The notes below the pieces were generated by a model. The model was not told the origin of the DNA and did no database searches. It saw only the letters and a program-made list of their open reading frames with translations. A DNA stretch of 64,000 nucleotides from assembly GCF_009848505.1 (NCBI RefSeq), contig NZ_WWDL01000014.1:1-64000 (forward strand), in the 5' to 3' direction. Shown one piece after another: positions 49,575 through 64,000 of the stretch. The stretch is from Muricoccus harenae (GTDB lineage: Bacteria > Pseudomonadota > Alphaproteobacteria > Acetobacterales > Acetobacteraceae). Numbering within the stretch: the first letter of the stretch is position 1; every line of letters starts with the position of its first letter. Position numbers and translations under genes: made by a program.

Positions 49575-50669
49575 ATGATCCGTCGCAACCTGACCCGCGC
49601 CGTGGTGGCCTGCCTGGCCCTGGCGGCAGGACCCGCGGGCTTGTCCCAGGCCTTCGCGCAGATGCCCGAAAGCCTGCCCGCCGGTCCGGCCCTGCGCATG
49701 TCGGCCGTCACGCAGCCCTTGCCCACCATGCCGCAGTTCACGCGGGTGGATGTGCCCTATCTGCGGGAGGCGCTGTCCCAGCGCTCGAACGGGCGGATCA
49801 CCATGCAGCTCTCCTCCCATGCCGAGCGCAACCTCGGGGGCAACGAGATCGTGCGGCTGGTGCGCTCCGGCCAGGTGGATATCGGCGCCGGCACACTTTC
49901 CACCCTCTCGGGCGACGTGCCGATCCTGGACGGCATCGACCTGGCAGGGCTGAGCCCGGATATCGAGCAGGCGAAGAAGATCGCCGAGGCCATCATGCCG
50001 GCCGCCAACCGCGACCTGGAGCGTTTCGGCGCGCGGATCATGCTGATCTACCCCTTCCCCGCGCAGGTGCTGTTCTGCCGCCAGCCCTTCACCACGCTGG
50101 GCGACCTGCGTGGCCGGAAGGTGCGCACCTTCGGCAATTCGCTGAACGACCTGATGACCACCATCGGTGCGCAGCCCGTCAGCATCGGCTTCCCCGAGGT
50201 GTACAGCGCACTGGAGCGCGGCGTGGCCGATTGCGCCGTGACGGGCACAGGCAGCGGCGCCTCCGCACGCTGGCCGGAGGTTTCCACCCATATCTCCGAC
50301 CTGCCACTTTCCTGGTCTCTCGCCGGCTATATGGTCAATCTCACCTGGTGGAACCGGCTGGATCCGACAGTGAGGGCCTTCCTGGAAGGCACCTTCCGCG
50401 AGATGAACGATAAGCTGTGGGAGCTCGGCGCCGCGGCCACGCGGGACGGCATCGCCTGCAACACCGGCGTCGCGGCCGAGTGCAAGCTGCATCCGCTGGC
50501 CCCTCGCCCGATGACCGAGGTGCGCGCGACCGAAGCCGACCGCGCGCTGGTGCAGACCACCTTCCGCAACGTCGTGCTGCCAAATTGGGTGCAGCGCTGC
50601 GGCGCGCGCTGCGGCGAAACCTACAACCAGATCGTCGCCCCCATCGGCGGCGTGGAGTATCGCCGTTGA
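49575..50669 (+). CDS. TRAP transporter substrate-binding protein (DctP family)
   Basis: A periplasmic binding protein of 364 residues with a signal peptide (residues 1-29, ending AFAQ). The DctP fold shows LRGRKVRTFGNSLNDLMTTIG and IGFPEVYSALERGVADCAV, containing the carboxylate-contacting regions. It would capture an organic acid for the membrane subunits encoded next. CTGGAGGA precedes the ATG. Its stop overlaps the small permease start by four bases. Confidence 0.92.
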   Translation: MIRRNLTRAVVACLALAAGPAGLSQAFAQMPESLPAGPALRMSAVTQPLPTMPQFTRVDVPYLREALSQRSNGRITMQLSSHAERNLGGNEIVRLVRSGQVDIGAGTLSTLSGDVPILDGIDLAGLSPDIEQAKKIAEAIMPAANRDLERFGARIMLIYPFPAQVLFCRQPFTTLGDLRGRKVRTFGNSLNDLMTTIGAQPVSIGFPEVYSALERGVADCAVTGTGSGASARWPEVSTHISDLPLSWSLAGYMVNLTWWNRLDPTVRAFLEGTFREMNDKLWELGAAATRDGIACNTGVAAECKLHPLAPRPMTEVRATEADRALVQTTFRNVVLPNWVQRCGARCGETYNQIVAPIGGVEYRR

Positions 50670-51292
50670 GCGACACCACCCCCGCGCCACTTCGCGTGGC
50701 GCGGGGCCTCACACGGGTGGTGACGCGTATCGCGGCGTTGATGGCCTATCTGGCCGGGTGGAACTACGTGGCCTGCGCCGCCCTGATCACCTTCGACGTG
50801 GTGGGGCGGAGCCTTCTGGGCTTTTCCAGTGCCGCCACGGTGGAGATCAGCAGCTACATGCTGGCCTGCGGCATCGCCTGGTCGCTGGCGCATACGCTGG
50901 CACGGCGTGCGCATATCCGCGTGGACGTGCTGGTGAACCGCATGAGGCTGCGCAACCGCGCCTGGCTGCATGTGCTGTCCCTCGCCCTGCTGGCGGGTTT
51001 CGCCGGCTTCATCGCCTGGGCCGGCTGGCAGGTGCTGGAGGAATCCATGCTGTTCGACGCGCATGACAACAGCGCGCTTCGCATCCCCATCGACATTCCT
51101 CAGGGTATCTGGGCCTTCGGGCTGCTGTCCTTCCTGGTGATGTCGCTGGTGCTGCTGCTGGAAGCCAGCCTTGCCCTGGCCTTCGGTCGCGTGGAGGAGG
51201 TGGATGCGCTGCTCGGCTCGCGCTCCGTTAATGATGAGACACAGGAGGCGCTGGAGGCCGTGGCCATGGCGCGGGAGGAGCAGCCGGCATGA
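50666..51292 (+). CDS. TRAP transporter small permease (DctQ family)
   Basis: A 208-residue four-helix membrane subunit, with helices near AGWNYVACAALITFDVVGRSLLG-like, ACGIAWSLAHTLARRAHI, LALLAGFAGFIAWAGW and IWAFGLLSFLVMSLVLLLEA. The TTG at 50666 overlaps the dctP-like stop (TTGA), and GGAG lies about ten bases upstream. It overlaps the large permease by four bases at its end. Confidence 0.9.
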   Translation: MSDTTPAPLRVARGLTRVVTRIAALMAYLAGWNYVACAALITFDVVGRSLLGFSSAATVEISSYMLACGIAWSLAHTLARRAHIRVDVLVNRMRLRNRAWLHVLSLALLAGFAGFIAWAGWQVLEESMLFDAHDNSALRIPIDIPQGIWAFGLLSFLVMSLVLLLEASLALAFGRVEEVDALLGSRSVNDETQEALEAVAMAREEQPA

Positions 51293-52653
51293 TCGCGATC
51301 GTCTTCCTCCTGAGTCTCCTCGCCGTGCTGGTCTTCGCGGCGGCAGGCACGGGGCAGTCCCTGCCCATCGCCGAGATCCTGGGGTTGATTGCCGTCTTCG
51401 TCGTGTTCTTCGGCGCGGGCGTGCATGTGGCGGCGGTGCTGGGCATCCTGGCGGTGCTGACGGGCTTCATCTTCTCCGACCGCCCGTTCTGGCTCTTCGC
51501 CGGCCAGACCTTCTGGGGGCCGTCGAGCAACTTCGTGCTGATTGCCGTGCCGCTGTTCCTCCTGATGGGCGAGATCCTGCTCCGGGCGGGGCTGTCGGAC
51601 CGGCTCTATAAGTCGCTGAACGTCTGGCTGAACCGGCTGCCGGGCGGGCTGCTGCATACGAATATCGCCTCCTGCGCGCTGTTCTCCGCCATCTCCGGTT
51701 CCTCCGTCGCCACCGCGGCGACCATGGGCTCGGTCGCCCTGCCCTATTTCAACGACACGAAATACAGCCAGCGCATGGTGCTCGGCTCGCTCGCGGCCGG
51801 CGGCGCCATGGGCAACCTGATCCCGCCCGGGATCACCTTCATCGTCTATGGGCTGATCACCGAAACCTCAGTCGGCGCGCTTTACGTCGCGGCGATCCTG
51901 CCGAGCGTGCTCGTCACACTGCTCTTCGCCGGCGTCATCACCGTGCACGGGTTGCGCAACCCGCTCGACCGGCCACCATCGCTGCCGCTTTCGGTGAAGC
52001 TGCGCTCCCTGGCCGGGTTGGTGCCCACCATGGCGCTGATCGTCATGGTGCTCGGCTCCATCTATGGCGGCTATGCCACCCCCACCGAGGCGGCGGCGCT
52101 GGGCGTGGCGGGGGCGCTGTTCTTCGCCGCCATAGAGGGCAAGCTCACCTTCCACATGCTCAACGCCTCGGCCGAGGCGACGGCACGGAACACGGCGCTG
52201 CTGGGGCTCATCATCCTCGGCGCCTATCTGCTGAACTACATCCTGACGTTGATCAACGTACCCCAGGCGCTCGCCGAGATGATCTCGCACCTGCCAGTGC
52301 CGCCCTGGGCGATCATGCTCGCGATCATCGGCATGTACTTCGCCCTCGGCACCTTCATGGAGGGCTTCTCCATGATCATCACCACCGTGCCCGTGGTTTT
52401 TCCCATCGTCGTGGCGCTGGGATACGACCCGATCTGGTTCGGCGTGGTGGTGACGATGCTGGTGGAGATCGCACAGATCAGCCCGCCGGACGGCACCGTG
52501 ATGTATGTGCTGCAGGGCATGCGTCCCAAGGGCGGGCCGATCACCGATGTGTTCGCGGGGGTGATGCCCTTCCTGCTGGCCTATCTCCTGGCGGTCGGGC
52601 TGCTGCTGATCTGGCCCGCCATCGCCCTCTGGCCTCTCCACTTCATGAGCTAG
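51289..52653 (+). CDS. TRAP transporter large permease (DctM family)
   Basis: A 454-residue integral membrane protein with about a dozen helices; it forms the sodium-coupled transport path of the TRAP system. Conserved blocks include FVLIAVPLFLLMGEIL, SGSSVATAATMGSVALP and the C-terminal QISPPDGTVMYVL. It completes a DctPQM set. A 100-bp spacer separates it from the hyuA-like gene. Confidence 0.93.
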   Translation: MIAIVFLLSLLAVLVFAAAGTGQSLPIAEILGLIAVFVVFFGAGVHVAAVLGILAVLTGFIFSDRPFWLFAGQTFWGPSSNFVLIAVPLFLLMGEILLRAGLSDRLYKSLNVWLNRLPGGLLHTNIASCALFSAISGSSVATAATMGSVALPYFNDTKYSQRMVLGSLAAGGAMGNLIPPGITFIVYGLITETSVGALYVAAILPSVLVTLLFAGVITVHGLRNPLDRPPSLPLSVKLRSLAGLVPTMALIVMVLGSIYGGYATPTEAAALGVAGALFFAAIEGKLTFHMLNASAEATARNTALLGLIILGAYLLNYILTLINVPQALAEMISHLPVPPWAIMLAIIGMYFALGTFMEGFSMIITTVPVVFPIVVALGYDPIWFGVVVTMLVEIAQISPPDGTVMYVLQGMRPKGGPITDVFAGVMPFLLAYLLAVGLLLIWPAIALWPLHFMS

Positions 52654-52753
52654 GCGCTCCACCCGCCGGCACGTCCGGCGCTTCGACGACACCACTCGCC
52701 CCGCGCCCCGCAGGGGCACGCCGCCCCCATCTTGCCCGGAGTTCCCGCACACC

Positions 52754-54787
52754 ATGGAGCCCTTCATCCGGATCGGCATCGACATCGGTGGTACCTTCAC
52801 CGACCTGCAGATCCTCGACGAACGCAGCGGCGCGCTGCGCAGCCTCAAAACCCCCACCACCCCGGAAGACCCGTCCATCGGCCTGCTGACGGGCATCGGG
52901 GAGGCCGCCACGCGCTTCGGCTTCTCCATTGCCGACATCCGCATCCTGCTGCACGGCACGACCATTGCCACCAATGCCGTGCTGGAACGCAAGCTGGCGC
53001 GCGGCGTGCTGCTGACCACGGCGGGCTTCGAGGATGTGCTGGAAATCGGCCGCCATGGGCGCCGGGACATCTATGGGCTGAAGCCGCATCAGGAGCCGCC
53101 CCTGATCGCGCGCGACCGCCGCCTCGGCCTGGCCGAGCGGATGCGCGCCGATGGCAGCATCGAAACCGCATTGGCAGCCGGAGCAGTCGATGCCGTCCTG
53201 CCGCGTCTCGATGCCCTTCGGGCGGAGGCGGTCGCCGTCTGCCTGCTGCATGCCCATGTGAACCCCGCGCATGAGCAGCTGGTTGCGGAACGGCTGCATC
53301 TGCTGCGCCCGGACCTGCCCGTTTCCATCTCCAGCGAGATCAGCCCGGAGATCCGGGAATACGAACGCTCCTCCACCACGGTGCTGAATGCGTTGCTGAT
53401 GCCGGTCGTCGGCAATTATCTCAGGCGGCTGACGGCCCGCATGGCGGAAGCGGGGCTGACCGCCCGGCTGCTGCTGGTGCAGTCCAATGGCGGCGTGTGC
53501 AGCCCGGATGTGGCCCGGCGCCAGCCCGCGCGGCTGCTGCTGTCCGGCCCCAGCGGCGGCGCCCTGGCCACCTTGCGCATGGCGGAGACGCTGGATCGCC
53601 CGAACCTGCTCGGCGTCGACATGGGCGGCACAAGCTACGACGTCTGCGTGGTGCGCGATGGTGCCGTGACGCAGATGACCCAGGGCGAGATCGACCACCT
53701 GCCCGTTCGCCTGCCGATGGTGGAGATCCGGACCATCGGCTCTGGTGGCGGCTCCATCGCGGCGGTGGACGAGGCGGGACGGCTGCGCGTCGGCCCCCGC
53801 AGCGCCGGATCACGCCCCGGACCGGTCTGCTACGGGCGCGGAGGCACGGAACCGGCGGTGACGGATGCCGATCTCGCCCTCGGCCGACTCGATCCACGTT
53901 TCTTCCTCGGCGGCGCCATGGCGCTGGATCGCCTGGCTGCGGCCGCCGCCATCGCCGCGAAGGTGGGCGAGCCGCTCGGGCTCGGTACGGAGCAGGCGGC
54001 GGAAGGCATCCTGGCTGTCACCGATACCGGCCTCGCAGCCGCCGCGCGCCTCAGCCTCTTCGAGAAGGGCCTTGATCCGCGTGACTTCAGCCTTCTCTCC
54101 TTCGGTGGCGCCGGCGGGTTGCACGCGGTGCCGGTGGCAGAGGAGTTGGGCATCCGCGAAGTGGTTTTCCCCGCCGATGCCAGCACCTTCTCCGCCTTCG
54201 GCATCCTGCATTCGGACATTGTGCATGACCTCGCCCGCTCCCGCGTCATGCCGCTGACGGCCGATGCACTGCCCTGGGTCGGGCAAACCATGTCGGCGTT
54301 GCGTGTGCAGGGAGAAGCGTTGCTCGCCGCGGATGGTGTGTCTGAGGCCGACCGGCGCTTCGCCGTCTCCGCCGATCTGCGCTATCGCGGGCAGGCCTTC
54401 GAACTGGTGGTGCCCTGGCCGGAGGCACCCGCCCTCGATCCCCTGCTGGCGGATTTCCACGCGCTGCACGAGGCGCGCTTCTCCTACGCCAATCCCGAGG
54501 CTCCGGTGGAACTGGTCGCGCTGCGCATGGCCGTCACCGGCCTTCTGCCGCCCGTGCATGCCGAGCGAGCCGCCGGCCGGGGCGCGGACCGCGAGCCGGA
54601 GGCGCGCGAGACCTGGCTCGCCGGCGCCTGGCGCCGCATCCCCGTGCATCAGCGCGAGCGGATCACCGGCCCCGTCGACGGCCCCGCGCTGATCGAAGAG
54701 GAATACACCACCATCTTCCTGGCCGAGGGGTGGCGCTGCGCCCCCGGCCCGGCAGGCGCGCTGATCGCCCGGAAGGAGGCTGCATGA
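52754..54787 (+). CDS. Hydantoinase/oxoprolinase subunit A
   Basis: A 677-residue HyuA-family protein, the ATP-binding subunit of ATP-dependent cyclic-amide hydrolases (N-methylhydantoinase, 5-oxoprolinase) and relatives such as acetone carboxylase. The actin-like phosphate loop is GIDIGGTFTDLQ at about 8-19, with HGTTIATNAVLER, LLVQSNGGVCS and GVDMGGTSYDVC further on. Overlaps the B subunit gene by four bases. Family alone cannot tell hydantoin, oxoproline or another lactam. Confidence 0.9.
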   Translation: MEPFIRIGIDIGGTFTDLQILDERSGALRSLKTPTTPEDPSIGLLTGIGEAATRFGFSIADIRILLHGTTIATNAVLERKLARGVLLTTAGFEDVLEIGRHGRRDIYGLKPHQEPPLIARDRRLGLAERMRADGSIETALAAGAVDAVLPRLDALRAEAVAVCLLHAHVNPAHEQLVAERLHLLRPDLPVSISSEISPEIREYERSSTTVLNALLMPVVGNYLRRLTARMAEAGLTARLLLVQSNGGVCSPDVARRQPARLLLSGPSGGALATLRMAETLDRPNLLGVDMGGTSYDVCVVRDGAVTQMTQGEIDHLPVRLPMVEIRTIGSGGGSIAAVDEAGRLRVGPRSAGSRPGPVCYGRGGTEPAVTDADLALGRLDPRFFLGGAMALDRLAAAAAIAAKVGEPLGLGTEQAAEGILAVTDTGLAAAARLSLFEKGLDPRDFSLLSFGGAGGLHAVPVAEELGIREVVFPADASTFSAFGILHSDIVHDLARSRVMPLTADALPWVGQTMSALRVQGEALLAADGVSEADRRFAVSADLRYRGQAFELVVPWPEAPALDPLLADFHALHEARFSYANPEAPVELVALRMAVTGLLPPVHAERAAGRGADREPEARETWLAGAWRRIPVHQRERITGPVDGPALIEEEYTTIFLAEGWRCAPGPAGALIARKEAA

Positions 54788-56412
54788 GCACGATGGATCC
54801 GGTTGCGCTGGAAATCCTGCGCAACGCCCTCACCGCCACTGCCGCCGAGATGGACGTGACGGTCTGGCGCACCAGCCGCTCCACCGTGGTGCGGGAACTG
54901 CTTGATTATTCCACCGCCGTCTTCGACCGCGGCGGTCAGAACGTCGCCCAGGCCGCCCGCATCCCCCAGCATCTGAACTCCATGGGCAGCGGGCTGCTGA
55001 CCGTTCTGCGCGACCACCTGCCGGTGGAGCAATGGGAGGATGGCGACGTCATCATCACCAATGACCCGTATTGCGGCGGCCAGCATATCCCCGACATCCT
55101 CGCCTTCCGGCCCGTCTTCGTGGATGGGGTGCGGGTGGGGATCGTCGGGACTCTCTGCCATCATCTCGACATGGGCGGCATGGCCGCCGGCTCCTATGCC
55201 GCCGCGGCGACGGAGGTGTTCCAGGAAGGGCTGCGCATCCCGCCGCTGAAGCTCGTACGGCGCGGCGTGCTGAACGAGGACATCCTGGCGATGATGCGCC
55301 AGAACGTCCGCCGCCCGGACATGCTCTGGGGCGACCTGCAGGCGCAGCTCGCCTCGCTGGCGGTGGGCGAGGCAAATCTCCGCCGCCTCGCCATGCGCAC
55401 GGGCACTGACACCTTCGTTGCGGCCTGCGCCCAGATGCTGGATGGCAGCGAACGTGCCATGCGCGCCATGATCGGCCGAATTCCCGACGGCCGCTACGAG
55501 TTCGAGGACTTCCTCGACGATGACGGCATCTCCCCCGATCCCGTCCGCATCCATGCGGCGGTGGAGGTGCGCGGGGAGGAGATCACCATCGATCTCTCCG
55601 GCTGCGGCAAGCAGGCGGTGGGGCCGATCAACGCCACCCTTGCCTCAGCGCAATCGGCCATCTCCTACAGCGTGATGGCGGTGTCGGATGCGGAAATCCC
55701 GGCCAATGCGGGCTGCTACCGCCCCATCCGTACCATCGCGCCGGAAGGGCTGATCGTGAACGCCCGGCATCCGGCGCCCGTAGCCAACCGCGTGGCCGTC
55801 ACCCACCGCCTCGCCACCACCATCCTCGGCGCGCTGCACCAGGCGATCCCGGGGCGGGTGCCCGCCGCCTATTACGGCGTTTCCTATGTCTGCTCCTTCC
55901 AGACGATCGGGGCAGATGGAGAGCGCGGCGTGCTGGTGGAGATCGAGGTGGGCGGCAGCGGCGCCTATGCCGATCAGGATGGGCTCTCGGCCTATACCTT
56001 CGGCATGCACAACAACTCGAACATCCCGGCGGAGATGATCGAAAGCGAGATGCCGCTGACAATCGTAGGCTATGGGTTGCTGCCCGGCTCAGGCGGTGCG
56101 GGGCGGCATCGCGGCGGCCTCGGCCTGTTCCGCGAATGGCGCATCGACAGCCCGGAGGCCATCTTCACCGCAAATCTCGAGCGCTTCACCCACCGCCCCT
56201 ATGGGTTGGAGGGCGGCGAGGCAGGGCGCGAAGGCCGCCTGTTCATTATCAGCAACGGCGAGCGCCGCGCCCTGGGATCGAAGGTGAACAACCTTCGCCT
56301 GAAGCGCGGCGACATCGTGCGGCTGGAGACCTCGGGCGGCGGCGGCTATGGCAGCCCGGCGGCCCGGCCGGCCGAGGCTCGCGCCCGCGATGCGGCCCTG
56401 GGCTATGCCTGA
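54784..56412 (+). CDS. Hydantoinase/oxoprolinase subunit B
   Basis: A 542-residue HyuB-family protein, partner of the A subunit. Typical blocks are PVALEILRNALTATAAEMDVT, NDPYCGGQHIPDI and the C-terminal GLFREWRIDSPEA and SGGGGYGSPAARP. The start is the ATG overlapping the A subunit stop. The pair likely opens a cyclic amide with ATP. It converges with the alpha/beta hydrolase gene, 18 bp apart. Confidence 0.9.
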   Translation: MSTMDPVALEILRNALTATAAEMDVTVWRTSRSTVVRELLDYSTAVFDRGGQNVAQAARIPQHLNSMGSGLLTVLRDHLPVEQWEDGDVIITNDPYCGGQHIPDILAFRPVFVDGVRVGIVGTLCHHLDMGGMAAGSYAAAATEVFQEGLRIPPLKLVRRGVLNEDILAMMRQNVRRPDMLWGDLQAQLASLAVGEANLRRLAMRTGTDTFVAACAQMLDGSERAMRAMIGRIPDGRYEFEDFLDDDGISPDPVRIHAAVEVRGEEITIDLSGCGKQAVGPINATLASAQSAISYSVMAVSDAEIPANAGCYRPIRTIAPEGLIVNARHPAPVANRVAVTHRLATTILGALHQAIPGRVPAAYYGVSYVCSFQTIGADGERGVLVEIEVGGSGAYADQDGLSAYTFGMHNNSNIPAEMIESEMPLTIVGYGLLPGSGGAGRHRGGLGLFREWRIDSPEAIFTANLERFTHRPYGLEGGEAGREGRLFIISNGERRALGSKVNNLRLKRGDIVRLETSGGGGYGSPAARPAEARARDAALGYA

Positions 56413-56430: not shown

Positions 56431-57339
56431 CTACATCGCCCGTGCCGGCGGCCGCAGGAAGTCCTCGATCGCCTGGAAGAAGATGGCCCGGTTCTTCGAC
56501 AGGTAGGAGACATGCGCCATTCCCGGGATCATCACGAAGCGCCGGTCATTCGTGCCGAGTTTCGCGAAGTAGTTCAGCAGGTCCTCCTCCGTGGCGATGC
56601 CGTCATGCTCGCCACGGACAATCATCACCGGGCAGCGCAGTTTCTCCGGCGTCACGACGGGAAGGTTGGCACACATGTCGAGATAGGTGCCGGTTGGCAA
56701 CGTGTCCCCTAGCGCCAGCTCGGCATCCGCCAGCGCATCGGCGATCCCTTCCTCCGAGGTACCTGGCAGGTCCCGGTTGAAGATGGAATGGAAGAAGGCC
56801 CGGTCCGCCTTCCGCACATGGGAGGAGCGCCATTCCTCCAGGCGCTCACGCCGCTTGATCAGCGTCGGGGCGCCCTCGCCGGTATAGACGAAGGCATCGA
56901 GGATCACGCGTTCCACCCTATCCGGATAGGCCTCTCCGAACAGCGCCGCACGCAGGGCGCCGGAGGAGGAACCGTAGAACATCGCCGTCCTCTTGCCGGT
57001 GACCTCGAAGACCACATCGGTCGCCGCGCGCAGATCTTCGGCCGCCATGGAGAGGTTTGAATTGGACTGGGTACGGGAGGAGCGCCCGTACCCCTCGAAA
57101 TCCATGGTCCAGACATCGAAGCCGCGGCGTGCGAACTCCTCCATGAAGGAGTAGCCCGGCTTGCCCGGCACATCGAGATCGAAGCCCGACTTGCCGCCAA
57201 AGGAAGAGCCATGGACGAGGAAGAGGATCGGCTGATCCCCTGCCCTGGCCAGGCGCTTGCGATAGACGGAGAGGCGCACATCACCCTTCTGCGCCCAGTG
57301 GTCCGTGGCTTCGATCGTGCCGCCCATATTCGTATCCAT
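56431..57339 (-). CDS. Alpha/beta fold hydrolase
   Basis: A 302-residue cytosolic hydrolase without a signal peptide. The oxyanion region is LVHGSSFGG near 42-49, the nucleophile elbow is FYGSSSGALR with Ser125, and the catalytic His is in IPGMAHVSYLS near the end. AGGAAAGGAA precedes the ATG at 57339. It is the last gene of the minus-strand catabolic run and may hydrolyse a ring-opened intermediate; the substrate is unknown. Confidence 0.87.
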   Translation of the reverse strand: MDTNMGGTIEATDHWAQKGDVRLSVYRKRLARAGDQPILFLVHGSSFGGKSGFDLDVPGKPGYSFMEEFARRGFDVWTMDFEGYGRSSRTQSNSNLSMAAEDLRAATDVVFEVTGKRTAMFYGSSSGALRAALFGEAYPDRVERVILDAFVYTGEGAPTLIKRRERLEEWRSSHVRKADRAFFHSIFNRDLPGTSEEGIADALADAELALGDTLPTGTYLDMCANLPVVTPEKLRCPVMIVRGEHDGIATEEDLLNYFAKLGTNDRRFVMIPGMAHVSYLSKNRAIFFQAIEDFLRPPARAM

Positions 57340-57368
57340 GTCCGTTCCTTTCCTGGAGGGTGCGCGCA

Positions 57369-58355
57369 TCACTCGGGGCGCAGCCCGGCGTCGCGAATGA
57401 GGTTGCGCCAGCGCGGCACGCTTTCTTGCACCAGCGTGCCAAGCCGCTCCGGCGGCCCGCCGACGATCTCGAAGCCGGATTCCAGCAGCGTCTGTCGCAC
57501 ATGCGGCTCGGCAAGCACGGCATTCGACCATTCGTTCAGCCGCGAGACGATCGGGGCAGGCGTGCCTGCCGGGGCGAAGAGGCCATACCAGTTCGGCACG
57601 TCGTAGCCGGGCAGCGCCACCTCGGCGACCGTGGGAACATCCGGCAGCAAGGGGAAACGCCGTGGCGTGGTGATGGCCAGCGGCACCACCTGGCCGCCGC
57701 GGATCAGCCCGATCACCGCGCCCAGGGTGACGAAGGCTGCATCCACATTGCCCGCCATCAGGTCGTTCACAGGCGTAGAGCCGCCGCGGTAAGGAATGAC
57801 CGACCAGCGCGCCCCCGTCTCATGCTGGATGACGGCACCGGAAAGATGTCCGCCGCTGCCGAAGCCGGAGATCGCGACCTGTAGCCGATTGGGATCGCGC
57901 TTCGCGATCTCCATGAACTGCGCGAAGCTCTTTGCCGGCCCGTTGCGATGGGTGACCAGAACATGCGGGATGCGCGCCATCAGATTGACGGGCGCATAGG
58001 CCGTAGTCGGATCATAGCCGGCATCACGGAACAGGCTGGGATTCACCGTGAGGGAATCCACCGCGACCAAAAGGTTCAACCCGTCCGGCGGCGATTGCGC
58101 CACGAGCTGGTAGGCCAGACTGCCCCCGGCGCCCGGCCGATTCTCCACGAAGAAGGACCCACGCCCCTTCTTCGTCAGCTCATCGGCCAGCACGCGCCCT
58201 ATCGTGTCGGTAGAGCCGCCAGGCGCGACGGGCAGCACGATCCGCACAGGGCGAGAGGGATAGCCCTCCGCCGACTGCGCCCAACCAGGCCGCGCCGAGA
58301 TCAGCCCAGTCGCTGCCAACGCCGCCAGACGGCGGCGCCCCATAGCCTGATGCAT
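57369..58355 (-). CDS. Bug family tripartite tricarboxylate transporter receptor
   Basis: A periplasmic solute receptor of 328 residues, with a signal peptide ending near residue 26 (GWAQ) and the family opening YPSRPVRIVLPVAPGGSTDTIGR. VENRPGAGGSLA is the ligand-loop motif. Bug proteins bind small carboxylates for TctAB permeases, or serve as sensors. No tctA or tctB gene is in the window. First of three such genes in this run. Confidence 0.92.
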   Translation of the reverse strand: MHQAMGRRRLAALAATGLISARPGWAQSAEGYPSRPVRIVLPVAPGGSTDTIGRVLADELTKKGRGSFFVENRPGAGGSLAYQLVAQSPPDGLNLLVAVDSLTVNPSLFRDAGYDPTTAYAPVNLMARIPHVLVTHRNGPAKSFAQFMEIAKRDPNRLQVAISGFGSGGHLSGAVIQHETGARWSVIPYRGGSTPVNDLMAGNVDAAFVTLGAVIGLIRGGQVVPLAITTPRRFPLLPDVPTVAEVALPGYDVPNWYGLFAPAGTPAPIVSRLNEWSNAVLAEPHVRQTLLESGFEIVGGPPERLGTLVQESVPRWRNLIRDAGLRPE

Positions 58356-58407
58356 GTTCGTTCACTCCCACTCACCCCGTCTATTGCGGGCTTTTTGGCT
58401 GGGCGCG

Positions 58408-59409
58408 TCATGGCGCAGCATCCAGCACGCTCGGATGGAACAGGTCCTCCGGCGCGATCTCCCGCGCGGCGAGGCCATCGGCAACGGCGAAGCGGATCAT
58501 GGCGGCCACCTCGTCGCGGTTGCGGCGGAAGCCGTAGGGCCAGGGGTCTCCGCCCATGATCCTCGTTTGCGCCTCCGCCTCCGCGGCAATCCAGGGCAGC
58601 GAGGCGCGCAGCACGTTCACCAGCGACAGGTCGGCCACCGCCATGGCACGGGCCCTGGCAAAGGCACGGAACAGCTCCAACGGCAGCCAGGGATGCGCCG
58701 CCGCCAACTCCTTGCGCAGGGCGACGCAATGCATGATCGGGAAGAAGCCGGTCGCGCGGAAATACGCCTCCTCCTCGCTCCTGTAGTCCGGGTAGAGGCG
58801 GTCCACGGGCGCGGAGCGGGCGACGAAGCAGGACGGTGGCCGCGGCCCGACCACGGCGTCGATCTCACCAGAGGCCAGCAGTCCGTTCAGCGTCTCCGTC
58901 GGACCAATCGGCTTCACGTCCAGATCGGCCGGAAGCTTCAGCGCCACGCGCTCGCTGCCGCCTGCCTCCTCCATCCCGCCGGTGCGCCAGGCAATGCCGC
59001 GCGTGTCCACGCCATAATGCTCGCGCAGGATGCCGCGCACCCAGAGCGCGGCCGTCTGCTGGTATTCCGGCAGGCCGATCCGCTTGCCCGCCAGATCCGC
59101 GGCCGTGCGAATGCCGCGATCCGTGCGGACATAGATGGCCGCATGGCGGAAGGCGCGGGAGGGGAAGACGGGAATGCCGATATAGGGCGCGTCGTCCCGC
59201 GCCGTGGTGACGATATGGCTGCCCATGGACAGTTCCGTCACGTCGAAGGCGCGGTCGCGCAGGGCGCGGCGGAAGATGTCCTCCGGCTCGCCCGGCAGCA
59301 CGGTCAGGGTGACGCCGGGCACCTCCACGCGTCCATCCAGGATCGGGCGCGTGCGGTCGGAACTGGTGCAGGCCAGGGTGAGGCGCAGGGTATCGGGCAA
59401 GTTCGTCAT
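58408..59409 (-). CDS. 4,5-dihydroxyphthalate decarboxylase-like protein
   Basis: A 333-residue protein without signal peptide, similar to the PhtD/Pht5 family: LRLTLACTSSDRTRPILDGRV, FDVTELSMGSHIV, IPVFPSRAFRHAAIYVRTD and IGLPEYQQTAALWVRGIL. The family shares its fold with ABC binding proteins such as NMT1, so a decarboxylase role is not certain. Its start overlaps the molybdenum-subunit gene by four bases, which ties it to that enzyme's pathway. Confidence 0.82.
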   Translation of the reverse strand: MTNLPDTLRLTLACTSSDRTRPILDGRVEVPGVTLTVLPGEPEDIFRRALRDRAFDVTELSMGSHIVTTARDDAPYIGIPVFPSRAFRHAAIYVRTDRGIRTAADLAGKRIGLPEYQQTAALWVRGILREHYGVDTRGIAWRTGGMEEAGGSERVALKLPADLDVKPIGPTETLNGLLASGEIDAVVGPRPPSCFVARSAPVDRLYPDYRSEEEAYFRATGFFPIMHCVALRKELAAAHPWLPLELFRAFARARAMAVADLSLVNVLRASLPWIAAEAEAQTRIMGGDPWPYGFRRNRDEVAAMIRFAVADGLAAREIAPEDLFHPSVLDAAP

Positions 59410-61550
59410 TCCATGGCGGCAGCAAGGTTGTCGGGCGTGAAGGGCATGGCGCGGGGCCGGATCCCGAGGGCGGCATGGATGCCGCTTGCGATGGCGGCGA
59501 TGGTGGGGCCGAGCGATGGTTCCCCCGCCCCCAGCGGCGGTGCATCACGAGGGCCGATCAGCCGCACCTCCACCGCCGGCACCTCCGAGAAGCGCAGCAC
59601 GGGGTATGCGTCCCAGCTGTCGGTGGTGACGTTCAGCCGATCGAAATGCACAGCTTCCTTGAGGGCGATGGAGGTCGCCTGGATGGCGCCGCCCTCGATC
59701 TGGTTGATCACCCCGTCCGGATTGATCGCCTCGCCCACATCGGCCGCGATCCAGAGGCGGCGGCAGCGCACCACCTCGGCAGCTTCCACCTCCGCGGCCA
59801 CCGCACACCAGCCGCCCGTGCCCTTGTAGCGCGCGACGGCGATGCCGGTGCCCACCCCTTCCCCGGCAGAGGCGCGCGGCCAGCCGCACATGGCTGCCAC
59901 CTCGCGCAGCACGGCGGCGGCGCGTGGATCGTCTTCCAGATGGCGCAGGCGAAAGGCGACGGAATCCTGGCCGATGCGTTCCGCCAGTTCCTCCATCACG
60001 GATTCCGTGGCCCATACATTCAGCAACGCCCCCAGACCGCGCAGGGCGGAGCTCCGGATGGGCATCTCCAGCAGGCGGTGCATCGAGACGTCGAGCGACG
60101 GCACGCGATAGCCCGGCACCGAATTTCGCTGCCCGCCACCACCGCCCGCCATCGGTGCATCGATCGCGACGGGATAGGTGAAGGGCGGATCGATATAGGC
60201 GGAGGACAGCAGCGTGGGATCCTTCGCCCGACCAGGCCGCGAGGAATGCCCATTGCCGCGCAGCACCGTCTGCCAGCGGCAAAGCATTCCCTCGGCATCC
60301 ACCGCGGCTTCAATCTCTGCCAGCGCGGCGGGGGAATGCGGAGACCAGGCCAGTTCCTCCGCCCGGCTCCACAGCACGCGCACCGGGCGGCCAGGATGGG
60401 CGCGGGCGACCAGCGCGGCATCCAGCGCCACGTCGTCGGCGCCATTGTGGCCGTAGCAGCCGGCGCCCTCCACATGGCGTACCATGATCCGCTCCGGCTC
60501 CAATCCGAGCACGGTCACGAGGTCCGCCCGCAGGTTGTAGATGCCCTGGCTGTGCGTCCACACCTCCACCGCGCCGTCCTGCCAGCGCGCGACGGCACAG
60601 GATGGGCCGATCGAGCCATGGGCGAGGAAGGGCCGCTGGAAACGCGCGGAGACCACATGCGCGGCTGCCGGCGCCGGATCGTCACGCCGCGCAACCTCGC
60701 TGGGCTGGGCGGGCGTGGCTTCGATCCATGCGGCAAGTTGGCCCTCCTCCGGCAGCGACTCCCGCACATCCCAATGCGCGCGGGCAGCGACACGCGCGGC
60801 CGCTGCTTCGGCCACCCATTCCTCGGAGGCGATGATGGCCAGAAGGTTGCCCTGCCGCAGTACGGACGCATCGCCAGGCAAGGGCCCGTCGCGGAGTTCC
60901 ACCAGCGTCGCCACGCGCGCCGGCGGGCGCACCATCCGCGCATGCAGCATCCCGGGCAACCGCAGGTCATGCAGGTAGCGGGCTACCCCGAAAACCTTGT
61001 CGGGCAGGTCCAGCCGCGCCACCGGCTGCCCCGCGATCCAGCGGGCAGATGCCGATTTGGGCGGCACGTCCCCCCGTGCCTCGACGTCCAGCAGCACCTC
61101 TTCGGCCTGCGCCCAGTAGGACCCGACCGCTTCTCCATCCGGGCGCTTGAAGACCCCATCCTCCACATGAAGCACCTCCGCCGCCACGCCGGCGCGTTGT
61201 GCGGCGAGGCGGAGATGAAGCGCCCGCGCCTCGGCGCAGGCATGGCGGATGGCGATGCCGCTTTCCTGAATGGACAGGCTGCCGGAGGTCACCCCTTCAT
61301 TCGGGCTGCCGGGCGTGGAGGCAGCCAGGATCCGGACGCGCTGCGGCGCGATATCCAACTCATCTGCCGCGATCTGCGCCAGCGCCGTCAAAATGCCCTG
61401 GCCAATCTCCACCTTGCCCGGCGTCACCGCCACGCTTCCATCGGCGGAGAAGCGCAGCCAGCGGAACAGGCGCGGCTCGGCGCGCAGGCTGCCGGGCAGG
61501 TCCGGGGCATTGCCCCCCTTCCCCATCGGGAAGCCGAAGGCGAGGTTCAC
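59406..61550 (-). CDS. Molybdenum hydroxylase large subunit (isoquinoline oxidoreductase-like)
   Basis: A 714-residue molybdopterin-cytosine-dinucleotide-binding subunit of the xanthine oxidase family. The N-terminal VEIGQGILTALAQIAADEL and GSLSIQESG, the central FQRPFLAHGSIGP and the C-terminal GAGEPSLGP are conserved; Glu677 in the last is the catalytic base position. There is no FAD subunit, so the IorAB type is more likely than xanthine dehydrogenase. No Tat signal is seen. Coupled at both ends to neighbours by four-base overlaps. Confidence 0.9.
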   Translation of the reverse strand: MNLAFGFPMGKGGNAPDLPGSLRAEPRLFRWLRFSADGSVAVTPGKVEIGQGILTALAQIAADELDIAPQRVRILAASTPGSPNEGVTSGSLSIQESGIAIRHACAEARALHLRLAAQRAGVAAEVLHVEDGVFKRPDGEAVGSYWAQAEEVLLDVEARGDVPPKSASARWIAGQPVARLDLPDKVFGVARYLHDLRLPGMLHARMVRPPARVATLVELRDGPLPGDASVLRQGNLLAIIASEEWVAEAAAARVAARAHWDVRESLPEEGQLAAWIEATPAQPSEVARRDDPAPAAAHVVSARFQRPFLAHGSIGPSCAVARWQDGAVEVWTHSQGIYNLRADLVTVLGLEPERIMVRHVEGAGCYGHNGADDVALDAALVARAHPGRPVRVLWSRAEELAWSPHSPAALAEIEAAVDAEGMLCRWQTVLRGNGHSSRPGRAKDPTLLSSAYIDPPFTYPVAIDAPMAGGGGGQRNSVPGYRVPSLDVSMHRLLEMPIRSSALRGLGALLNVWATESVMEELAERIGQDSVAFRLRHLEDDPRAAAVLREVAAMCGWPRASAGEGVGTGIAVARYKGTGGWCAVAAEVEAAEVVRCRRLWIAADVGEAINPDGVINQIEGGAIQATSIALKEAVHFDRLNVTTDSWDAYPVLRFSEVPAVEVRLIGPRDAPPLGAGEPSLGPTIAAIASGIHAALGIRPRAMPFTPDNLAAAME

Positions 61551-62023
61551 GCCACAGCCCCTGCGCGCATCTCCCGCGCCGCGCGGTGCACCGCGCGGAT
61601 CATGCGGTTCTGCGCCCCGCAGCGGCAGAGATGCGGCTCCAGCGCCGCCCGCACCGCCACCTCATCCGGATCCGGATTCCGCGCCAGCAGCGCCGCCGCG
61701 CTGACCAGTATGCCAGAGAGGCAATAGCCGCATTGCCCCGCCTGCTCCGCCAGGAAGGCTGCCTGCAGCGGATGCGGCGCCTCGGGCGTGCCCAGCCCCT
61801 CCACCGTGCCCAGGTGTCGTCCCGCCACGGCCTCCACCGGCAACGCGCAGGACGGGCGCGGCTCGCCATCCACAGTCACATAGCAGCAGCCGCAGGCCTC
61901 CTGCCCGCAACCGAAGCGCGGGCCGCTCAGCCCGAGTGGCCCGCGCAGCGCATGCAGCAGCGTCATGCCCTCCGCCGCCTCCACCTCGGCCGGCACACCG
62001 TTGAGGGTGAAGGCGACCCGCAT
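61547..62023 (-). CDS. Molybdenum hydroxylase small (2Fe-2S) subunit
   Basis: A 158-residue iron-sulfur subunit. The plant-type cluster is held by Cys39, 44, 47 and 59 (GCGQEACGCC plus SCALP), and the second cluster by Cys98, 101, 133 and 135 (QCGYC, LCRCG). It passes electrons from the molybdenum site to an acceptor that is not encoded nearby. It sits immediately after the upstream Bug gene with no gap. Confidence 0.95.
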   Translation of the reverse strand: MRVAFTLNGVPAEVEAAEGMTLLHALRGPLGLSGPRFGCGQEACGCCYVTVDGEPRPSCALPVEAVAGRHLGTVEGLGTPEAPHPLQAAFLAEQAGQCGYCLSGILVSAAALLARNPDPDEVAVRAALEPHLCRCGAQNRMIRAVHRAAREMRAGAVA

Positions 62024-63001
62024 TTAGTTAACCTCGATCCGGGCCATGCGGACGTAGTTGCCCTGCGTCTCGACATCCTTGCGCAGGAAGCTGTCGAACG
62101 CGGCGATCGACATCGCCATGGGCTGCGCGCCCTGCTTCTCCATCGCGGCTTTCGTCTCGGGCCGGGACAGCCAGGCATTCACCGCGCCGTTCAGCTTCTC
62201 CACGACGGGGCGCGGCGCCTGCGCCGGCACCATAAGCCCGAGCCAGATCGAGGCCTCGTAACCCGGCAGACCGGCCTCCGCGACAGTCGGCAACTCCGGC
62301 ATCAGCGGGTCGCGCCGCGGCCCGGTGGTCGCCAGCGCCTTCGCCCGCCCGCCCGCCACATGCGGCTGCATGGTGGGAATGGCGTCGAACATCATCGGCA
62401 CCGTGCCGGAGATGAGCGCCGTGCGGGCCTCGCCCGAGGAGCGGAAGGGAATGTGCTGGATCTCGATGCCCGCCATGGCGCGGAACACCTCGCCCGCGAT
62501 GTGATACGGCGTGCCGGGGCCGGAGGAGGCGTAGTCGATCTTCCCAGGCTCCGCCTTTGCCTTCGCGATCAGCTCCGCCACGCTGTTCACGCCGAGCGAG
62601 GGGTGCACCGCCAGCACGTGATGCGCCACATTCACCGCCGCGGCCGCCCCCAGGTCCCGCAACAGCACATAGGGACGGTTCCGGATCAGCGTCTCGTTCG
62701 CCGTATGCGTGTTGGACATCATCAGGATCGTGTAGCCGTCGGGAGCCGCCTTCGCGACGGCATCCGTCCCGATCACCGCGCCTGCGCCGGGCCGGTTCTC
62801 CACGACGAATGGCTGGCCGAGGCTCTGCGACAGCGCTTCCGCCACGTTGCGTGCGGCAATGTCGGCGGAACCGCCCGCGCCGAAGGGCACGACGATCCGC
62901 ACCGGCCGGTTCGGCCAGCCCGCATCCTGCGCGAGCGCGGGTGTGGCGAGGGCGCCAGCCGCGAGCGCCCCGAGCCCCCGCCGCGTAATGATGCCATTCA
63001 T
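62024..63001 (-). CDS. Bug family tripartite tricarboxylate transporter receptor
   Basis: A second periplasmic receptor, 325 residues, with an RR-containing signal peptide (MNGIITRRGLGALAAGALAT..., cut near ALAQ) and WPNRPVRIVVPFGAGGSADI. I start it at the Met at 63001; the longer frame is Arg-rich without similarity. It lies between another Bug gene (34 bp upstream) and the iron-sulfur subunit, in one operon. Confidence 0.93.
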   Translation of the reverse strand: MNGIITRRGLGALAAGALATPALAQDAGWPNRPVRIVVPFGAGGSADIAARNVAEALSQSLGQPFVVENRPGAGAVIGTDAVAKAAPDGYTILMMSNTHTANETLIRNRPYVLLRDLGAAAAVNVAHHVLAVHPSLGVNSVAELIAKAKAEPGKIDYASSGPGTPYHIAGEVFRAMAGIEIQHIPFRSSGEARTALISGTVPMMFDAIPTMQPHVAGGRAKALATTGPRRDPLMPELPTVAEAGLPGYEASIWLGLMVPAQAPRPVVEKLNGAVNAWLSRPETKAAMEKQGAQPMAMSIAAFDSFLRKDVETQGNYVRMARIEVN

Positions 63002-63035
63002 TGTTCCGTTCCTTCCCCAGCCCCTTGCGGGCCTG

Positions 63036-64000
63036 CTATTCGACCTTGCCGATCCGCTGCACGGCACGAACCAGCCGCGCGCTGTCCTCGCGAAAGAAGC
63101 GCTCGAACTCGGCGCCGTCCTGGTAGGCGATGGGGCTGCCAGCGGCCTCCATGGCGCGCTTCAGCGCATCGTCCTTCTCACAGACCTGGCGCAGCGCCTG
63201 ACGCATGCGGTCCTGAACCGGCGCCGGTGTCGCGGCCGGCAGGAACACGCCCGCCCAGATGTAGAACTCCACATCCTTGTAGCCGAGCTCCATGAAGGTC
63301 GGCACATCCTCGAAGCCCTTGAGGCGCTCGCTGCCCCAGCTGGCCAGGGCCCGCAGGCGCCCTTCCCTCACATGCGGCACCGCCGGGCCGGGACCGGAGG
63401 ACAGGGCGTCGATCTGGCCCGCGAGCAGCGCCGTCAGGGCTGGGCCGCCGCCCTGGAAGGGCACATGCAGCAGGTCCAGATCGGCCGCGCCGGTGAACAT
63501 CGCCATTGCGACATGCAGGGTGGAGTAGTTGCCCGCCGAGCCATAGGTGATGGCGCCCGGCCGCTTCTTCGCATCTGCCACGAATTCCTCGACCGTCCGC
63601 CAGGGCGAGCTCGCCGGCACGAGCAGCACGGTCGGGTCGGCATTGATCCGCGCGATCGGGGCGAGCTGGTCTACGGTATAGGCCGGCGTGCGGCCCATGA
63701 TCCGCTCGCTTTCCGGCAGCATGGCGAGGGAGGAGAGCGCCATCAGCGCCGTGTAGCCATCGGGCGCTGCCCGGGCCACGCTGGCCGTGCCGACGATGCC
63801 GCCGGCGCCCGGGCGGTTCACCACCGGCACGGCTTGGTTGAACACCCGCTCCAGCGCCGCCGCCACCGGGCGGGCCGTCACATCGGCCTGCCCGCCGGGC
63901 GGAAAGGCGACGATCATCTGGACCGGCCGCGTGGGCCAGGCGCCCTGCGCATGCGCCGCGGGGATCAGCCCGACGGCACCCAGGGCCGCCATCAGGTCAC
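63036..64000 (-). CDS. Bug family receptor, start beyond the window
   Basis: A third Bug receptor. The visible part ends a signal peptide (ALGAVGLIPAAHAQG) followed by WPTRPVQMIVAFPPGGQADVTAR and VVNRPGAGGIVGTASVA. A Met at 63992 is in frame but would give a very short signal peptide, so the true start is probably past position 64000. It heads the visible minus-strand run. Confidence 0.9.
   Translation of the reverse strand, partial: DLMAALGAVGLIPAAHAQGAWPTRPVQMIVAFPPGGQADVTARPVAAALERVFNQAVPVVNRPGAGGIVGTASVARAAPDGYTALMALSSLAMLPESERIMGRTPAYTVDQLAPIARINADPTVLLVPASSPWRTVEEFVADAKKRPGAITYGSAGNYSTLHVAMAMFTGAADLDLLHVPFQGGGPALTALLAGQIDALSSGPGPAVPHVREGRLRALASWGSERLKGFEDVPTFMELGYKDVEFYIWAGVFLPAATPAPVQDRMRQALRQVCEKDDALKRAMEAAGSPIAYQDGAEFERFFREDSARLVRAVQRIGKVE

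Follow-up and report, generated by a model that had tools for sequence, protein, structure and literature searches.

Quinolinate (pyridine-2,3-dicarboxylate) serves as a precursor of NAD and is neurotoxic in animals. Enzymes for its bacterial breakdown have already been reported from Alcaligenes sp. UK21: the title of one paper names both a quinolinate dehydrogenase and a 6-hydroxyquinolinate decarboxylase (Uchida et al. 2003), and a review describes the latter as converting 6-hydroxyquinolinate to 6-hydroxypicolinate, with no cofactor reported and with 'some similarity to phthalate decarboxylases' (PMC6644310). Quinolinate receptors have also been described, namely Bug27 and Bug69 (PMC11452294). 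Our literature search, which covered few subscription journals and is no proof of absence, found no genes for quinolinate breakdown. Here we analyse a 64,000-nucleotide stretch of Muricoccus harenae DNA (contig NZ_WWDL01000014.1, positions 1 to 64,000; hereafter, the window), at one end of which lies an operon that joins a two-subunit molybdenum hydroxylase to a phthalate-type decarboxylase, as attested by its gene content and order, its conservation, and the fold and family of its products. We tentatively propose that it serves the catabolism of an aromatic ortho-dicarboxylate, for which quinolinate is the leading candidate.

The operon, listed here from its regulator downwards, runs beyond the window on the 114.6-kb contig, into a fumarylacetoacetate-hydrolase-family gene (FAHD).

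Contig about 65147-65833, plus strand: GntR-type regulator, divergent, outside the window
Contig 64140-65054, minus strand: FAHD, outside the window, preceding Bug1
63036-64000 in the window, minus strand: Bug1, TctC-type receptor, cut by the window's end, with its start near 64013 on the contig (PF03401, 1.4e-61)
62024-63001, minus strand: Bug2, TctC-type receptor, the one conserved in the core (PF03401, 1.1e-63)
61547-62023, minus strand: 2Fe-2S subunit (FeS) of the molybdenum hydroxylase, 158 aa, with both cluster domains (PF01799, 3.7e-24; PF00111, 1.2e-8)
59406-61550, minus strand: molybdenum-cofactor subunit (Mo), 714 aa (PF20256, 1.5e-35; PF02738, 3.3e-26; 8gy3_C, 1.1e-48)
58408-59409, minus strand: dihydroxyphthalate-decarboxylase-like protein (DHPD), 333 aa, proposed 6-hydroxyquinolinate decarboxylase (PDB 9jp7, 5.1e-91)
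57369-58355, minus strand: Bug3, TctC-type receptor (PF03401, 4.8e-55)
56431-57339, minus strand: alpha/beta hydrolase, 302 aa, with a possible longer start at 57531 (PF12146, 8.1e-17)

An earlier, sequence-only reading of this DNA had recognised the seven genes within the window as one minus-strand set (three Bug receptors, 2Fe-2S and Mo subunits, a DHPD-like protein and a hydrolase), and coordinates and Pfam domains bear it out, including the absence of any FAD-subunit gene within the run. Its 18-bp gap to the stop of the neighbouring hyuB also holds (gene end at 56412, hydrolase stop at 56431), the two genes lying tail to tail. FeS overlaps Mo by 4 bp, as Mo does DHPD, while Bug2 abuts FeS. 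For the hydrolase, no NCBIfam model passes its cut-off and solved relatives are weak only. Promoter- or terminator-like signals are in no excess over shuffled sequences; there is no Rfam match in locus L009 and no tRNA in the window.

The known member of the DHPD family strips one carboxyl group from a hydroxylated aromatic ortho-dicarboxylate, and the sole PDB sequence match of the window protein is the 4,5-dihydroxyphthalate decarboxylase of Comamonas testosteroni KF-1 (9jp7; 45% identity). An AlphaFold2 model of DHPD, built from 34 sequences (predicted local distance difference test, pLDDT, 88.6), adopts the same fold as 9jp7 over 323 residues (TM-score 0.91, Z 38.8); the next structures, binding proteins and enzymes of the substrate-binding-protein fold, reach Z 19.6 and below. 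Residues at least 90% conserved both within the DHPD clade and among eight sequences that are phthalate-linked or solved include D18, R19, E59, S61, S64, R85, R88, H89, E115, W123, R125, H227, R232, W290 and Y292. Pfam returns just a sub-threshold Phosphonate-bd match, and no signal peptide is apparent by eye. Judged by full-length sequence and predicted fold, DHPD belongs to the 4,5-dihydroxyphthalate decarboxylase superfamily. It nevertheless stands apart from Pht5, the enzyme of the phthalate pathway, with which it shares fold and invariant residues. In a maximum-likelihood tree of 51 of our 101 DHPD rows, all nine rows tagged by phthalate genes (one of them, L143, via a Pht4-like gene alone), together with L092, L098 and L142, form a single group of 12 that is split at 99/97 from the group of the window protein, which places DHPD, by sequence, outside the phthalate-linked clade and hence not with Pht5 proper. 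Its partners differ as well, being FeS and Mo rather than phthalate dioxygenase, the reductase of that enzyme and dihydrodiol dehydrogenase.

NicB-like molybdenum enzymes add oxygen to a ring carbon beside the nitrogen, or to an aldehyde. Akin to nicotinate dehydrogenase of the NicAB type, the enzyme encoded here has separate 2Fe-2S and Mo subunits, no FAD subunit, and MoCoBD_2 ahead of MoCoBD_1, an order that Pfam also finds in another protein of this genome, a NicB-type Mo/cytochrome protein, which is 40% identical to the Mo subunit and adjoins a NicC. Unlike that protein, the window's Mo subunit carries no cytochrome c domain detectable by Pfam; it falls in a different clade, and the operon contains no NicC. 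Its GAGE motif is kept, the Glu of which we take to be catalytic, and no Tat-like (twin-arginine translocation) leader is seen by eye at its start. The NicA-like, NicB-type and NicC genes lie elsewhere in the window's genome (L114, 8205-13412; contig C40 near 82.2-87.4 kb), adjoined by a branched-chain-type ABC transporter; no later nic genes were recognised near them. As this NicC matches 5eow at 5.3e-172 and stands beside the NicB-type protein, hydroxypyridine chemistry is likely to be present in the organism.

A scan of named genomes gave 133 DHPD relatives, and the best 80 loci, mostly from Acetobacteraceae/Roseomonadaceae, were tallied at fixed thresholds. In 60 of the 80, at most 100 bp separate the Mo subunit gene from DHPD. 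In 58, Bug2, FeS, Mo and DHPD are contiguous; in the other two (L069, L084) the stretch starts within 1.4 kb of DHPD. This linkage exceeds chance. FAHD together with GntR is found in 16 loci, 13 of which also have the Mo core and Bug1, and Bug1 itself occurs in 13. The same gene order is publicly annotated on a Roseomonas marmotae plasmid. Bug3 and the alpha/beta hydrolase accompany DHPD in five loci and HyuA, at 60% identity or more, in one, and we therefore regard them as local additions; weaker HyuA and HyuB homologues lie near in a few loci. The locus is thus a conserved catabolic operon with Bug2-FeS-Mo-DHPD as its core, FAHD and GntR joining it in the closest relatives, and the hydrolase and third receptor local. 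Unlinking of the genes in relatives, which the sequence-only reading had named as the outcome that would tell against it, is not what the 80 loci show for the core, whereas linkage of its whole set breaks down at Bug3 and the hydrolase.

Several loci carry other companions. L079, L081 and L086 combine GntR, FAHD and DHPD with an ABC transporter, as read from sequence, and show no Mo gene in the stretch. A short-chain dehydrogenase/reductase (SDR) follows DHPD, or an adjoining FAD-dependent monooxygenase (FMO), in L067, L068, L070, L071, L073, L075 and L089; aspartate-dehydrogenase-like genes lie near in L068, L070, L073, L075 and L089, and L073, L075 and L089 additionally have an ABC transporter with a cyanase-looking gene. 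Three gene clusters found upstream in many relatives (clusters 4, 5 and 6), at first taken for pathway genes, were rejected on their sequences; presumably they are an alpha-E / ATP-grasp / protease set.

A second assembly of this kind was met outside the clade. Within a draw of 397 genomes from the phylum, DHPD was matched at E 1e-60 or better in 10, the window's own included, and in three of these, all from one family (f12; L140, L144, L145), FAHD, DHPD and the Mo subunit lie within about 14 kb. By Pfam, L140 encodes FAA_hydrolase, an NMT1-type receptor, TauE, TctA, LVIVD, OsmC, a 2Fe-2S subunit and the Mo subunit, and L144 a GntR/FCD regulator. Our simple GC-based gene caller errs on some genes (around DHPD in L146, the dioxygenase in L234) and did not call FeS and GntR in L145. 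Trees place the f12 DHPD and Mo proteins outside the clades of the window's proteins, and a second cluster of Mo, DHPD and FAHD away from the Acetobacteraceae clade supports a joint route. In the f12 regions, extended past the Mo gene, no gene was recognised as ring-cleaving, the homology test covering two gentisate dioxygenases.

Taken with the neighbourhood, these findings make it probable that molybdenum-dependent oxidation and DHPD-type decarboxylation belong to a single route. As the known member of the DHPD family acts on a hydroxylated ortho-dicarboxylate and NicB-like Mo enzymes oxidise beside a ring nitrogen, the simplest substrate for both together would be quinolinate. In the route that we infer, as regards substrate, order of steps and transport, Bug2, with Bug1 and Bug3, would bind the acid for a permease of the tripartite tricarboxylate transporter (TTT) type encoded elsewhere. 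The FeS-Mo enzyme would hydroxylate quinolinate at C6, beside the ring nitrogen, and DHPD would then remove the C3 carboxyl from the resulting 6-hydroxyquinolinate to give 6-hydroxypicolinate. This carboxyl would stand para to the hydroxyl just introduced, an arrangement that 4,5-dihydroxyphthalate shares. Later steps would vary by lineage, with FAHD acting on a late product, and GntR would regulate the operon.

The abstract of the UK21 paper reportedly likens the N-terminus of the decarboxylase to that of 4,5-dihydroxyphthalate decarboxylases. The UK21 pathway resembles the proposed one in that hydroxylation precedes a cofactor-free decarboxylation, just as a hydroxylase gene and a phthalate-type decarboxylase gene are paired here; the likeness is one of reaction description, not of sequence, and decarboxylation to 6-hydroxynicotinate, our first idea, was dropped since the review gives 6-hydroxypicolinate (PMC6644310). 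The pic cluster of Alcaligenes faecalis JQ135 and Bordetella likewise proceeds via 6-hydroxypicolinate, with a later decarboxylation, but its PicC is an amidohydrolase-family decarboxylase, picA comprises three genes and picB four, and the sections available to us mention no DHPD-like gene (PMC10142695). Of the pathway for an aromatic or N-heterocyclic compound that the sequence-only reading had built on the Mo hydroxylase, the tie to a DHPD-family decarboxylase with TTT receptors stands as a conserved unit, and an N-heterocyclic acid is the likeliest substrate. Ring opening by the set finds no support, as none of the operon's products was recognised as a ring-cleaving enzyme. The statement that no described pathway has these parts needs a qualifier, for the two UK21 enzymes are a described pair of matching steps.

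Several observations weigh against quinolinate. An adjacent Mo gene is missing in 20 of the 80 DHPD loci: 19 show none in the stretch examined, although L065, with just 0.7 kb covered upstream, is uninformative, and L062 has Mo 2.2 kb off; in 11 of the 20, Bug2 stands directly before DHPD. The lower pathway was not found in the window's genome, where a search for the ring-opening NicX with PF02073 gave one strong match of unclear role and is no test of NicX. The review groups the UK21 enzyme among phthalate decarboxylases of the UbiD family while calling the UbiD membership of 4,5-dihydroxyphthalate decarboxylases not clear (PMC6644310); since DHPD has the substrate-binding-protein fold, a link to UK21 that depends on an unconfirmed family assignment is uncertain. 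Nor do the receptors strengthen the case. Bug27 (2qpq) is the best solved relative of Bug1 (2e-50) and belongs to the same family as all three Bug proteins, but alignments of Bug1 and Bug2 retain none of the five quinolinate-contact residues given for Bug27 (T22, C136, Q142, C165, T183; PMC11452294), and we rejected the receptors as proof of quinolinate. In family f46, which we take to be the Burkholderiaceae including relatives of Alcaligenes, a sample of 399 genomes listed 57 DHPD places, of which 41, in 40 regions, served as a contrast set; the FeS and Mo queries matched none of these regions. At the edge of one (L217), about 8 kb away from DHPD, there is a weak NicB-type fragment. Finally, a 3-hydroxybenzoate-6-hydroxylase-like FMO occurs in seven of the 80 loci, adjoining DHPD in six.

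This last observation leads to the rival that survives best, a benzenoid route, which we nonetheless consider rather doubtful. Here DHPD would turn a hydroxyphthalate into 3-hydroxybenzoate, which would pass on to gentisate in some lineages, with FAHD supplying the fumarylpyruvate-hydrolase step; Mo and DHPD would still act jointly, the former producing the hydroxyphthalate by oxidation of an aldehyde such as a hydroxylated 2-carboxybenzaldehyde. All four FMOs that were scored pass the curated cut-off for 3-hydroxybenzoate 6-hydroxylase, and the six adjoining DHPD have HxVHYPL and LAQGA stretches, presumably parts of the active site, in common with homologues beside gentisate dioxygenases. A gentisate 1,2-dioxygenase exceeds its cut-off in six of six genomes with an adjacent FMO versus two of six without (eight of 12 relatives), L206 and L194-L196 group DHPD with gentisate-dioxygenase-like and FAHD genes, and among solved structures the Mo subunit is closest to 8gy3, which is an aldehyde dehydrogenase (large subunit). 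Against this, the FMO is confined to those seven loci, none of the 80 stretches holds a gentisate dioxygenase, the window's own genome reaches 34.7 bits for gentisate 1,2-dioxygenase against a cut-off of 442.1, and the operon offers no known source of the aldehyde.

The FMO loci deserve a closer description. Where the FMO adjoins DHPD (L032, L035, L067, L073, L075, L083), a stand-alone gentisate dioxygenase lies elsewhere in the same genome, and none of the six gentisate-dioxygenase stretches showed a recognisable homologue of FAHD, FMO, Mo or DHPD next to that gene. In the window's genome the FMO lacks a close orthologue, the best match reaching 32-39%. Within the FMO sub-lineage, the evidence points to a product resembling 3-hydroxybenzoate or the aza-analogue of that acid, 6-hydroxypicolinate. 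In L092, L194-L196 and L206, DHPD has as neighbours FAHD, genes of cupin or gentisate-dioxygenase-like type, and FMO or Rieske genes, a set that possibly encodes a hydroxyphthalate-gentisate route. A pyridine version of the phthalate-gentisate route, in which Mo would convert quinolinate to 6-hydroxyquinolinate, DHPD would yield 6-hydroxypicolinate, FMO would form 3,6-dihydroxypicolinate ('azagentisate'), and stand-alone gentisate-type dioxygenases would cleave the ring ahead of FAHD hydrolysis, strikes us as very unlikely.

Two further alternatives are each improbable. The first replaces quinolinate by another N-heterocyclic dicarboxylate, such as cinchomeronate (pyridine-3,4-dicarboxylate), passing through the same hydroxylation and decarboxylation; the sequence evidence sets reaction types, not ring position. 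We know of no enzymatic precedent for such other dicarboxylates, whereas quinolinate has one in UK21 (PMC6644310).

The second holds that the Mo enzyme and DHPD are mere neighbours in separate reactions, or that DHPD is a binding protein rather than an enzyme. Separate reactions would accord with the 20 loci without adjacent Mo and with a Mo relative that lacks DHPD in Variovorax (L118), but they sit poorly with the 4-bp overlap, with an order kept in 58 loci and with the second Mo-DHPD association in f12. Public records do name DHPD homologues substrate-binding proteins, and 'ABC transporter substrate-binding protein' is the label that most plasmid homologues listed carry, yet in model comparison 9jp7 scores far above any binding protein. 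The Mo enzyme may, from its kinship to 8gy3, act on a simple aldehyde, the second outcome that the sequence-only reading had named as telling against it.

Phthalate degradation itself was rejected: phthalate dioxygenase, its reductase and dihydrodiol dehydrogenase were found in none of the 80 loci at 1e-12, and when the search was repeated at 1e-8, with positive controls, the one match was a weak Pht4-like dihydrodiol dehydrogenase at 27% (L080). Of the 40 f46 regions, by contrast, 22 hold a phthalate dioxygenase with at least 60% identity. In L097 (plasmid pCAR3, annotated) and L141 (read from sequence), phthalate clusters contain or adjoin a nadC-like gene for quinolinate phosphoribosyltransferase.

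We do not count the flanking genes in the pathway. TRAP (tripartite ATP-independent periplasmic) transporter genes and HyuAB occupy 49575-56412 of the window on the plus strand, convergent with the operon; their nearest models are caprolactamase, with scores far under the cut-offs. We rejected them as pathway members on their orientation and on the single locus with HyuA. Past GntR lies a separate minus-strand set, in which an esterase/lipase-like gene and a branched-chain-type ABC transporter accompany an FAD monooxygenase assigned to NCBIfam subfamily PRK07538 (535 bits; cut-off 400); the monooxygenase-lipase pair was likewise rejected, the lipase recurring in one of the 80 loci and the monooxygenase in none at 50% identity.

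If the quinolinate route is correct, this operon would supply genes for steps of quinolinate breakdown across many bacteria of the Roseomonas type, and the role of a decarboxylase family known from phthalate catabolism would extend to N-heterocycles. The public label 'ABC transporter substrate-binding protein' on these decarboxylases hides such pathways.

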